DNA from: Luteitalea sp.
GTDB lineage: Bacteria > Acidobacteriota > Vicinamibacteria > Vicinamibacterales > Vicinamibacteraceae
Direction of reading: 5' to 3'
Assembly: GCA_009377605.1 (NCBI GenBank)
Contig: WHTT01000035.1
Span: forward strand, 1-63,807
Length of the DNA stretch: 63,807 nucleotides
Below are positions 38,483 to 42,178 of the stretch, one piece after another (the stretch's first letter is position 1; every line of letters begins with the position of its first letter). Position numbers and translations under genes: made by a program. The notes below the pieces were generated by a model that was given only the letters and a program-made list of their open reading frames with translations, ran no database searches and was not told the origin of the DNA.

Positions 38483-39028
38483 ATGCGGAGGGCGAACTTG
38501 GGAACGAACGGATCACAACCGAGGAAGTGGTCCAAGCGGCAATGGCTAAAGCGTACCAGATCGGAGGCGGCGTCTCATGCTCGCCTCGTCCAAGGACGGC
38601 TCATCGTCACGGCGCCACCGCGGCTCGAGCCGCCGGCGATCGAGCGCCGGCGCTCGCGCGTGCACGGATGGGGCGTCTTCGCGCTCGAGCCAATCTCGAA
38701 GAACAAGCGCATCGTGGACTACGCGGGGGAGCTCGTTGCCAATTCGCGAGCAACGCCGCGTGAAGAAAGATACTTGGAAGAGGGCTGCATCTGGTGCTTT
38801 CAACTCAATCGTCTCTGGGTGATTGATGCCGGCGTCGGGGGCAACATCGCCCGCTTCATCAATCACTCGTGCCAGCCCAACTGCCATAGCCGCATCGAGC
38901 GTGGCTTGATCTGGATCTGCGCGTCCCGCGTCATTCGACGGGGTGAAGAGCTGACCTACAACTACTTTACCGAGGGCGCTGCCGAGATCCCGTGCGGCTG
39001 CCGTCCCGGGTGCCAGAATATGCTCTAG
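38483..39028 (+). CDS. SET-domain protein-lysine methyltransferase
   Basis: A 181-residue bacterial SET protein. RRSRVHGWGVFALEPISKNK begins the domain (about residue 57), then VDYAGELV, ARFINHSCQPNC (about 122-133), RRGEELTYNYF with the catalytic tyrosine, and the post-SET CGCRPGC. All three SET motifs and the zinc-binding cysteines are present, so an active methyltransferase is expected, with an unknown protein substrate. The N-terminal 40 residues are basic and poorly defined; the first Met is at 38483, and a later non-ATG start is possible. It overlaps the next gene's region by only a few bases (8 bp gap). Confidence 0.88.
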   Translation: MRRANLGTNGSQPRKWSKRQWLKRTRSEAASHARLVQGRLIVTAPPRLEPPAIERRRSRVHGWGVFALEPISKNKRIVDYAGELVANSRATPREERYLEEGCIWCFQLNRLWVIDAGVGGNIARFINHSCQPNCHSRIERGLIWICASRVIRRGEELTYNYFTEGAAEIPCGCRPGCQNML

Positions 39029-39036
39029 CCCACTAG

Positions 39037-39714
39037 ATGCACGTCCTCTACCTCCACGGCTTCGCTTCCTCCCCGAGCTCGTCGAAGGCCCGCTTCTTCG
39101 CCGAGCGTTTGGCGACCAAGGGTCTGACGCTCCACTGCCCGGATCTCAACGAGCCAGACTTTTCGACGCTCACGGTGACTCGTATGCTGCAGGCCACCGA
39201 GGATGCGATGCGTCGGCTGGCGCCGGACCGCGTCGTTTTGATCGGCTCGAGCCTTGGCGCGCTCGTGGCGTGGCGTACGGCGGTGCGACTGCATCCGGAC
39301 GCAACGCATCCCGTCGACCGCGTGGTACTGCTCGCGCCGGCGCTCGAGTTCGGCCACGACCGCCTCGGGCTGACGGAGGGAGAGCTTTGCGAGTGGGAGC
39401 GGACTGGCTGGCGCGAGGTGCTTCACCACGCATACGGCGAGGTGCGGCGCATCCACTTCGAGATCTATCGGGACGCGGCCCGCTACGATTCCGAAGGAGT
39501 CGATGTGCGCGTGCAGACACTCATATTCCAGGGGCGGCGGGACGAGCTGGTCGACGCCGACGCGGTTGCACGATTTGCGCGCGCGCGCAAATCGCATGTC
39601 ACGCTGCACCTGCTCGAGGATGGTCATCAGCTGCTGAACCACATGGAGTTGATGTGGCGCGAGACGTCGACCTTCCTCGGCCTGGATGCCGACGTCGCGC
39701 TACGTCCGACGTGA
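39037..39714 (+). CDS. YqiA/YcfP-family alpha/beta hydrolase
   Basis: A 225-residue esterase-like protein. MHVLYLHGFASSPSSSKARF is the typical start (LHGF.SSP), then VVLIGSSLGALVAWRTAVRL with the nucleophile serine in GSSLGA (about residue 71), GRRDELVD with the acid, and EDGHQLLNH with the catalytic histidine. The family is of small cytoplasmic esterases of unknown physiological substrate. It follows the SET gene by 8 bp and is probably co-transcribed. Confidence 0.9.
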   Translation: MHVLYLHGFASSPSSSKARFFAERLATKGLTLHCPDLNEPDFSTLTVTRMLQATEDAMRRLAPDRVVLIGSSLGALVAWRTAVRLHPDATHPVDRVVLLAPALEFGHDRLGLTEGELCEWERTGWREVLHHAYGEVRRIHFEIYRDAARYDSEGVDVRVQTLIFQGRRDELVDADAVARFARARKSHVTLHLLEDGHQLLNHMELMWRETSTFLGLDADVALRPT

Positions 39715-39739
39715 AGAGTACGCGGCGGAAAGGGGACCC

Positions 39740-42178
39740 ATGTCCGGCCACGACGGGTGCGCAAGGATGCTCGCCGCTGCTGTTGTGCTCGCTCTCACGT
39801 GGGCCGGTGCGGCGTGCGGCCCGAGCGGCGAGGCGCCACGCCGTAGCAGGCCCACGCGATCGCCCGCCGTTGCCTCTCCCTCGGCTGATTCCGGTCAGAC
39901 CGACGACACGCTGCAGACCGCTATCGACCGTAGCGCCTTTCTCGTGCTCGCGTTGCCGGGCACTCAGGTGCTTGCGAGCCAGCGCCTCGAACGGTTGGAC
40001 GAGCCCGTTCGGCCAGGCTCCATCGCGAAGATCGTGACGCTGGTGGGCGCGCTCGAAGCAGGCGTCGTCCGCGAGACGAGCCGCGTCCGCTGCAGTCGCA
40101 CGCTGCATCTGCCTCCACACGATCTCACCTGCGCCCACCCGGATCTGGGGCAACCGCTCACGCCTGCCGACGCGTTGGCGCATTCCTGCAACGTGTTCTT
40201 CGCCACGGTCGCGAAGCGCCTGCCCCGCGCGGCATTCAACCGCGCCGCGCTCGCCTTGGGTCTCTCACCGATCAGCGCCGATGTCGATCTTCCCCTTGCC
40301 GCCCTTGGCTTGGCCGGCGAGTCCGCAACGCCGCGCGCGCTCCTCGCCATGATGCAGCGCCTCGTCCAGGGTGAGCAGATGTCAATTCACGACAGCACTC
40401 GTCGGGTCGTTCTCGAGGGCCTGCGGCGTGCCACAGAGGAGGGTACCGCTGCCGCGCTCTCCGCTCACGAGCTGCAGGGCTGGGCGAAGACGGGCACGGC
40501 GCCAGGCGCGGGCCGGTTCGAAGGGCTGGCGGTGGCCGTCACGACGGACGCTTCGGATCGTCCGTCACGAGGCGTTGTCGTCCGCGCTCCAGGTGCGGCT
40601 GGTCGCGACGCCGCCGCGATCGCCGCCGAGATCCTGGCACGCGAGCGGAGCGAGCGAGCGCGGCCGAACGTCGCGTCGGCACGCTCGACCGACGGGCCTT
40701 TCGTGCAGGTCGGCCGCTCTGCCCAAGCTGGCTCGGTCGACACGCTCGCGCTCGACGACTACGTGGCCCAGGTCGTGGCTGGTGAGGCACCGCCAGACGC
40801 ACCGGCCGCTGCGCTCGAGGCGCTTGCGATCACGGCTCGCACGTTTGCCCTCGCACAGGGAGGTCGTCATCAACGAGAGGGCTTCGATCTCTGCGACCTT
40901 ACTCACTGTCAGGTCCTTCGGCCGGAAACGGCTTCGTCCAGGGCCGCTACCGTTCGCACGAGAGGTGTCGTGCTCGTGGAGCCACCGAGCACCGAGCGCT
41001 CCCTGCACCAGGTTCGACCTGCTGCGGTGTTCTACAGCGCATCCTGCGGCGGCACGCTCGTGATGCCAGCCGATGTCTGGCCGGATGGACAACGCCTCGA
41101 ACACCTCCGGGAGGGCGCTGATCCGGCCGCACATCCGGTTGCGTCGTGGCAGACAAACGTCGCGGCTGTCGATCTCGAGCGCGCTCTTCAGTCGGCCGGT
41201 GCTCGTGGAGGCACGCTGCGTGACCTACGCATCCTGGCTCGTACGCCGGCCGGCTTGGTGGCACGCCTCGGGCTCGACGGTCTGGTCCCGAGCGAGCTCG
41301 ATGCCGAGAGCTTTCGACGGCTGCTCGGCGACCGACTCGGCTGGCACATCCTGAAGAGCAACGAGTACGACATCACGCGCACGGCCGCCGGCTATCGGTT
41401 CGATGGCCGGGGGCGTGGTCATGGCATTGGGTTGTGTCTGCGAGGCGCGATCACGCTCGCCCAGACGGGACGATCGTCGGAGCAGATCGTCGAAACCTAC
41501 TTTCCAGGGCTCGTCGAAGCCGGCCTCGAGGATGTGCAGGTCCGCAGCGGGAGCGAGCACAGCCGAGATGTCCGGATCATTCTCCCGGCAGCTGATGAGC
41601 AGGCGCGCTCTCGCTTCTCGGCGCTCGTCGAGCGGACGCTCGCCGATCTCCAGAGGCAGACCGGCCAGCCTCGGCCGGCCATTGTCTTGCGCGTCCACCC
41701 GACCATTGAGAGCTTTCAGCGAGCGACCGGTCTCGCGTGGTGGACAGCGGGAGCGACGACACGCCGGGACGCCAGAAGCGCCGCTGGGGAGTCGAGGGCC
41801 GCGGCAGTCGATGTTCACCTCGTGCCATTACAGCTGCTCGAACGTCGCGGCACGCTGGCGGCGACCCTGCGGCACGAGCTGTCGCACGCGTTGACGTTCG
41901 ATGCGTTGGTCGACCGGCCTCTCTGGGTACGCGAAGGCATGGCAATGCACTTCGCCAAGCCGTCAAAAGAAGAAACGGGAGGCGGACATCTTGCTGCTGC
42001 TGATACTTCGTGTCCCACGGAGACCGAGCTGCGGCGTTCCGGCTCCGCGGAGGCCCTCGCGCGCGCACAACGCCGAGCCCTGGCCTGCGTCGAGACCTCC
42101 TTGGACGCAGGCACTCCTTGGTGGGCCGTGGGCGACGACACCATCACTGTCACGTCGTCAGGAAGACACGTTCGATGA
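39740..42178 (+). CDS. Transpeptidase-SpoIID-metallopeptidase fusion protein
   Basis: An 812-residue exported protein with three enzymatic-looking modules. After the signal peptide (CARMLAAAVVLALTWAG, a cysteine follows in AAC) comes a penicillin-binding-type transpeptidase (about 50-290): SIAK (SxxK), SCN (SxN) and AKTGTA (KTG) are all present. The second is SpoIID (about 300-600): YVAQVVAGEAPPDAPAAALE, FYSASCGG and GRGHGIGLCLRG. The third is a zinc-peptidase-like tail: LRHELSHALTF (HExxH-like, HELSH) and WVREGMAMHF with a downstream Glu. SpoIID modules cut or sense glycan strands, so this would be a single envelope protein acting on peptidoglycan. The start ATG 39740 overlaps nothing; a longer frame from 39686 exists. 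Its end overlaps hupE by 29 bp. Confidence 0.82.
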   Translation: MSGHDGCARMLAAAVVLALTWAGAACGPSGEAPRRSRPTRSPAVASPSADSGQTDDTLQTAIDRSAFLVLALPGTQVLASQRLERLDEPVRPGSIAKIVTLVGALEAGVVRETSRVRCSRTLHLPPHDLTCAHPDLGQPLTPADALAHSCNVFFATVAKRLPRAAFNRAALALGLSPISADVDLPLAALGLAGESATPRALLAMMQRLVQGEQMSIHDSTRRVVLEGLRRATEEGTAAALSAHELQGWAKTGTAPGAGRFEGLAVAVTTDASDRPSRGVVVRAPGAAGRDAAAIAAEILARERSERARPNVASARSTDGPFVQVGRSAQAGSVDTLALDDYVAQVVAGEAPPDAPAAALEALAITARTFALAQGGRHQREGFDLCDLTHCQVLRPETASSRAATVRTRGVVLVEPPSTERSLHQVRPAAVFYSASCGGTLVMPADVWPDGQRLEHLREGADPAAHPVASWQTNVAAVDLERALQSAGARGGTLRDLRILARTPAGLVARLGLDGLVPSELDAESFRRLLGDRLGWHILKSNEYDITRTAAGYRFDGRGRGHGIGLCLRGAITLAQTGRSSEQIVETYFPGLVEAGLEDVQVRSGSEHSRDVRIILPAADEQARSRFSALVERTLADLQRQTGQPRPAIVLRVHPTIESFQRATGLAWWTAGATTRRDARSAAGESRAAAVDVHLVPLQLLERRGTLAATLRHELSHALTFDALVDRPLWVREGMAMHFAKPSKEETGGGHLAAADTSCPTETELRRSGSAEALARAQRRALACVETSLDAGTPWWAVGDDTITVTSSGRHVR

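Follow-up and report, generated by a model that had tools for sequence, protein, structure and literature searches.

A predicted exported protein with transpeptidase, SpoIID and zinc-peptidase modules in Luteitalea sp. and its probable link to bacterial alpha-2-macroglobulins

The gene at positions 39740-42178 of the window, i.e. the whole 63,807-nucleotide stretch of Luteitalea sp. DNA that was analysed, almost certainly encodes a single exported chain in which a transpeptidase of class-B-PBP type (TP), a lytic transglycosylase of the SpoIID family and a zinc peptidase of the gluzincin type (PEP) follow one another, as judged from folds and motifs. D,D-transpeptidase, transglycosylase and peptidase activities are predicted for this protein of 812 residues, and we favour, at a probability of about 0.6, the reading that it is a peptidoglycan-processing enzyme forming the wall-repair arm of a periplasmic defence system based on thioester alpha-2-macroglobulin (A2M).

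Architecture and catalytic residues

The open reading frame covers 39686-42178 on the plus strand, and translation from the ATG at 39740, located behind the stretch GGAAAGGGG, yields the 812-residue product. Its features are as follows:

39740..42178, plus strand: gene of the three-module exported protein (812 aa), from the reading frame, Pfam/NCBIfam and alignment
39740..39814, plus strand: hydrophobic N-terminal export signal, predicted from sequence and alignment
39923..40648, plus strand: TP module, residues 62-303 (PF00905, E 7e-15; Foldseek to PBP3/FtsI/SpoVD, E about 1e-11)
40019..40030, plus strand: SIAK (S94xxK97) with the predicted acyl-serine; S94 and K97 invariant
40184..40192, plus strand: SCN, residues 149-151, the SxN motif; invariant
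40487..40498, plus strand: KTGT, residues 250-253; invariant
40697..41539, plus strand: SpoIID module, residues 320-600 (PF08486, TIGR02669; Foldseek to 5i1t, E 9.5e-15; profile match to 4rwr, E 2e-27)
40784..40786, plus strand: E349, putative catalytic residue of SpoIID; invariant, at the position of the conserved glutamate in 5i1t and 4rwr
40868..40915, plus strand: zinc-site signature H377...C385-DLT-H389-C390-QV; invariant, aligned with the H134/C140/H145/C146 region of Clostridioides difficile SpoIID
41561..42139, plus strand: gluzincin peptidase module, residues 608-800 (model pLDDT 88, pTM 0.86; VIA-align Z 11.6 to collagenase 7wss and 10.5 to LTA4 hydrolase)
41873..41887, plus strand: HELSH, residues 712-716, HExxH zinc site; H712, E713 and H716 unchanged across 17 sequences of several lineages
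41933..41935, plus strand: E732 in WVREGMA, predicted third zinc ligand of the gluzincin type; invariant

When the window protein was aligned with nine complete homologues encoded in Acidobacteria MAGs (identity to the window protein 40-67%), S94, K97, S149, C150, N151, K250-T253, E349, H377, C385-V392, H712, E713, H716 and E732 were found to be invariant in all ten sequences. Chance occurrence of the motifs is ruled out by this conservation and by shuffling of the window protein, in which the ordered motif set never appeared (0 of 20,000 shuffles), and a chimeric assembly or gene-call artefact is ruled out because the identical fusion recurs in many independent genomes. The original prediction of three catalytic modules in one chain, with SIAK, SCN and KTGT retained in the N-terminal module and SpoIID with its glutamate region behind it, is therefore upheld by profiles, invariant residues and predicted folds alike. 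The full-length AlphaFold2 model (mean pLDDT 78.6, pTM 0.41) does not fix the placement of the modules relative to each other. Cys26 lies in what is at best a weak lipobox (AGAAC) and is not conserved among the aligned homologues. A tblastn search of plasmids returned no full-length relative. Directly upstream of the gene, a SET-domain gene and a UPF0227 alpha/beta-hydrolase gene occupy 38483-39714 on the plus strand; similar ORFs, recognized by eye, precede the homologue at two other loci (L004, L006) and a hydrolase-like ORF does so at a third (L003), so that the upstream gene order is partly conserved.

In the TP module, the Pfam Transpeptidase profile PF00905 matches residues 84-299 with 55.4 bits (cut-off 22.1), and the SxxK, SxN and KTG motifs together with the PBP fold identify a PBP transpeptidase domain. 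Foldseek comparison of the AlphaFold2 model matches this part to PBP3/FtsI and SpoVD in their transpeptidase domains and the SpoIID part to 5i1t and 4rwr, and a profile search of PDB sequences agrees with the structural matches for both the TP and the SpoIID parts. The structure-prediction check proposed at the outset was thus favourable, and of the refuting outcome named with it, a fold unlike transpeptidases combined with absence of penicillin binding, the part on the fold does not apply. By its predicted fold, the module is of the class-B PBP type, and it has no dimerisation domain.

The SpoIID module is matched by PF08486 at residues 329-412 (E 7.5e-17) and by the NCBIfam model SpoIID_LytB (TIGR02669) at residues 333-591 (110.7 bits, cut-off 83.3), which, with the invariant E349 and the fold match, places it among the SpoIID/LytB transglycosylases. 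Its invariant H377/C385/H389/C390 set (CDLTHCQV; H-x7-C-DLT-HC-QV) corresponds in a profile alignment to the zinc ligands of C. difficile SpoIID, where zinc is bound by H134, C140, H145 and C146 and mutation of C140 or H145 abolishes in vitro activity (PMC6221140). The module thus shares its fold, the position of the catalytic glutamate and C. difficile-type zinc ligands with the Firmicute SpoIID of the DMP engulfment machine, but it occurs outside any sporulation context and is joined to TP and PEP modules. A second SpoIID protein is encoded in the same genome (G000:C31:8391-8678), and the family profile matches it only over the SpoIID part.

For the C-terminal part, a weak DUF1570 match is the sole Pfam/NCBIfam signal. 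The PEP module was modelled alone with 17 aligned sequences (pLDDT 88.4, pTM 0.86). Foldseek found no significant PDB match for this model (best E 0.044), and VIA-align gave Z 11.6 to a collagenase (180 residues, 3.7 A), with LTA4 hydrolase and M1 aminopeptidases following at a Z of about 10.5. A Z of 11.6 is moderate; combined with the HExxH...E motif and the PxWxxEG signature, it makes the gluzincin assignment firm, the HExxH site and the downstream glutamate ligand lying in a thermolysin-like domain. The window protein is not among the matches listed for Peptidase_MA_2 (PF13485), judged at the Pfam gathering score, to which seven of the 17 PEP relatives show weak similarity (E up to 0.1, best 6e-7); PEP is related to this family and is not filed as a member. 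HELSH and the downstream glutamate had been correctly recognized in the initial reading, and the statement that they close the protein was nearly right, about 80 residues following E732.

Gene neighbourhoods and co-occurrence with A2M

In six or more groups of phylum rank, homologues of the protein adjoin a large gene for A2M; loci outside Acidobacteriota were collected by a conserved-peptide search, and counts there do not represent an unbiased survey. Near A2M, the modules are arranged as TP-SpoIID-PEP, as TP and SpoIID-PEP genes, as three separate genes, as TP-PEP-SpoIID or as SpoIID-TP. Among Acidobacteriota, the complete fusion stands beside A2M and DUF1175 at L008-L010, L081-L084, L087 and L095-L098, and split TP and SpoIID-PEP genes do so at L086 and L099. 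Family f31 of the same phylum, from which an HMM search suggested that TP was absent, carries TP followed by PEP-SpoIID, either split (L088, L089) or fused (L090), so that TP is present there, either on its own gene or in another module order. In Myxococcota/'Deltaproteobacteria' (L018, L021, L024), A2M and a DUF2135-like gene are followed by three consecutive genes for TP, SpoIID and PEP, and L046 has the same neighbours. Elusimicrobia (L026, L032) present A2M, TP and SpoIID-PEP, while Sericytochromatia (L022) present TP and SpoIID with A2M 2.5 kb further on. In Spirochaetes (L041, L044, L045, L048), A2M is followed by a SpoIID-TP fusion in which PEP was not detected. At a WOR-3 locus (L014), the DUF1175, A2M, TP and SpoIID-PEP genes overlap end to end. 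This operon closes with a 478-residue ORF (L014:8359-9795) that has no Pfam match and may be a further Yfa/Mag component, for example DUF2138. That one set of modules is found fused, split and rearranged is a classical sign of parts that work together, and suggests such cooperation here.

The association was quantified across 297 Acidobacteriota genomes with DUF1175 as the marker of the A2M operon. DUF1175 is present in all 20 genomes with detected TP+SpoIID, which belong to 11 families, versus 18 of the 277 others (Fisher p 5.5e-21, kinship ignored). These 18 all belong to family f31, and the three that were inspected carry TP, PEP and SpoIID in another order. DUF1175 and TP+SpoIID share a contig in 17 of the 20 genomes, within about 10 kb in 16 and 31 kb apart in one. 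Five families (f3, f7, f8, f17, f26) each include genomes with both features alongside genomes with neither, which indicates that the link does not reflect descent only. In the order to which the window belongs, 14 genomes have no triple protein, and a bMG10-type A2M is missing from 12 of them as well; the A2Ms of the other two are larger (open frames, 1985 and 2092 aa). A general rule that TP occurs only with DUF1175 fails, as three spirochaete genomes have SpoIID-TP without DUF1175; A2M adjoins SpoIID-TP at two of these three loci and is the more general neighbour.

The genome of the window itself holds one A2M and one DUF1175 gene, adjacent to each other on contig C28 (L080:3782-9366), and the triple gene lies on contig C35; adjacency to A2M and DUF1175, seen in most relatives, is therefore represented here by co-occurrence only. 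Membership of the protein family in A2M gene clusters was beyond the reach of the single sequence from which the single-chain architecture had been correctly read. In DUF1175 (L082, L084, L014, L101 and E. coli YfaT aligned), the DCA, H.M and YHTG motifs are kept, and a weak similarity to NlpC/P60 is visible. DUF1175 has been called inactive in one paper (PMC10318531), and its conserved cysteine and histidine invite a test of that report.

These data bear on the possibility that the protein is a general peptidoglycan degrader or remodeller serving growth, predation or recycling with no tie to A2M, in which a D,D-endopeptidase/carboxypeptidase, a transglycosylase and a stem-peptide peptidase cooperate in the manner of SpoIID-SpoIIP. 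Peptidoglycan is a possible target of each of the three modules, SpoIID action requires prior removal of stem peptides (PMC6221140) and the window gene is not adjacent to A2M. Furthermore, SpoIID-PEP without TP is present in genomes lacking DUF1175 and the A2M operon, which suggests that SpoIID and PEP have another use too. Two such loci are L091, which keeps HELTH, and L094, which reads RYQVA at this position and has thus lost the zinc site. The recurrence of the A2M linkage in different groups, and the gain and loss of the protein together with DUF1175, argue against a role apart from A2M, which we consider to have perhaps one chance in four, whereas a functional link of the three-module protein to A2M is very likely.

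Relation to the Yfa, Mag and PBP1C systems

The closest described protein is YfaQ of E. coli (549 aa, DUF2300), encoded in the yfaA-T-S-Q-P operon between the A2M YfaS and YfaP. The initial remark that no described enzyme with these three activities in one chain was known was incomplete, since YfaQ was described in 2025 as bipartite, with transpeptidase-like and SpoIID-like parts, in an account whose relevant passages name no peptidase (PMC12282094). Loss of yfaQ makes the cells wider, an effect like that of deleting mepS or mepK (PMC12282094). Homology over TP and SpoIID is supported by hhalign (E 1.1e-4 with one sequence; E 2.3e-9, probability 96%, with two). Both proteins have the TP-like part before SpoIID, an HExxH-type motif towards the C-terminus (HEYLH in YfaQ) and an association with A2M and DUF1175 (YfaS adjacent, YfaT in the operon), and YfaQ keeps SxxK and the SpoIID glutamate. 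YfaQ differs in having SCG instead of SCN and KTW instead of KTG, in lacking the CDLTHCQ zinc signature and in its length (549 versus 812 aa). PF10062 (DUF2300) matches YfaQ and gives no match in the window protein, and similarity of the YfaQ C-terminal end to PEP (E 0.004, probability 8%) is suggestive only. The thioester motif CxEQ is present in all 24 A2M sequences read from clusters of the window-protein family and absent from the YfaS-type A2Ms of E. coli and Citrobacter, in which P[WY]GGVIN stands instead. YfaQ is a worn cousin of the window protein, and these two enterobacterial sequences suggest that the A2M thioester and the active sites of the enzyme decayed in parallel. The absence of SxN and KTG from YfaQ, whose TP and PEP parts may be non-catalytic, could be taken to mean that both modules are binding scaffolds throughout; for the window protein this is highly improbable, given that every catalytic residue is invariant in the ten aligned sequences and that SxxK/SCN/KTG[TS] is found in all 18 other TP modules for which the full sequence was read.

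In Pseudomonas aeruginosa, the A2M MagD, which lacks a thioester, binds MagF 1:1 in an A2M-centred periplasmic complex (PMC5764988) and protects against the peptidoglycan-targeting T6SS effectors VgrG3 and Tae1 (PMC12663445). The Mag complex (MagA-F) resembles the present clusters in its A2M centre, and differs in that the A2M neighbours of the window-protein family keep CxEQ. The protection given by the mag operon, like the yfaQ deletion phenotype, counts in favour of a role in envelope defence and wall repair. By operon comparison, MagF may be the counterpart of YfaQ. Within the open-access papers searched, bacterial macroglobulin and SpoIID are mentioned together only in one proteome study of a cyanobacterial thylakoid lumen.

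A connection to the second known arrangement, the Type I pair of A2M and PBP1C, for which protease trapping on intrusion and peptidoglycan repair have been put forward as functions (PMC5764988), is provided by Corallococcus, where A2M is followed by a PBP1C (above the TIGR02073 cut-off) and then by SpoIID (L027:3-6774). SpoIID is the third member of this A2M-PBP1C operon, and a Goldiibacteriota locus (L017) likewise has PBP1C followed by SpoIID. The TP module appears to take the place of PBP1C. Both systems pair a thioester A2M with a D,D-transpeptidase and are joined in Corallococcus, but the TP of the window protein lacks a glycosyltransferase domain and shares its chain with SpoIID and a peptidase.

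BlaR1 also combines a TP-like module and a gluzincin in one chain. This likeness would fit a BlaR1/MecR1-like sensor-protease, in which acylation of TP by beta-lactams or stem peptides activates the zinc peptidase to cut, for example, the A2M bait region; sensing of beta-lactams or stem peptides by the first module had been raised in the original prediction. Processing of MagD from 165 to 100 kDa in P. aeruginosa would also agree with it, but is unchanged by deletion of magF (PMC5764988). Moreover, the TP is class-B-PBP-like with SxN rather than class-D-like, its best fold matches being class B PBPs; SpoIID, with its own active site kept, lies between TP and PEP; both modules are often encoded by separate genes, and the spirochaete fusions have no detected PEP; and PBP1C can occupy the TP slot, as in Corallococcus. 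A sensor function is therefore improbable.

Proposed role in wall repair

Under the favoured reading of a wall-repair arm, a breach of the envelope would lead A2M to trap incoming hydrolases while the three-module chain repairs the sacculus on the spot. SpoIID would clear denuded or damaged glycan, and TP would re-form cross-links in the slot filled elsewhere by PBP1C. The zinc peptidase might trim nearby peptides, or proteins that intrude there, which is the least certain step. The earlier suggestion that the protein could build and cut peptidoglycan at one site accords with the evidence. Wall repair or remodelling during attack stands at roughly even odds, and the specific role given to the peptidase is less likely than not; a physical complex with A2M and the substrate of the peptidase are likewise putative.

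The gene set around the thioester A2M protease trap is probably ancient. A broader proposal, to which we assign slightly less than an even chance, is that an undescribed, ancient and phylum-spanning system of envelope defence combines this trap with a three-enzyme repair chain, and that Yfa, and probably Mag, derive from it by joint decay of the thioester and the active sites. The data connect two kinds of A2M operon so far regarded as distinct, i.e. the PBP1C type with a thioester and the Mag type without. Since relatives with every active site intact are now available, the function of Yfa and Mag, the enzymatic steps that accompany bacterial A2M and the mending of the wall by an A2M complex become testable.
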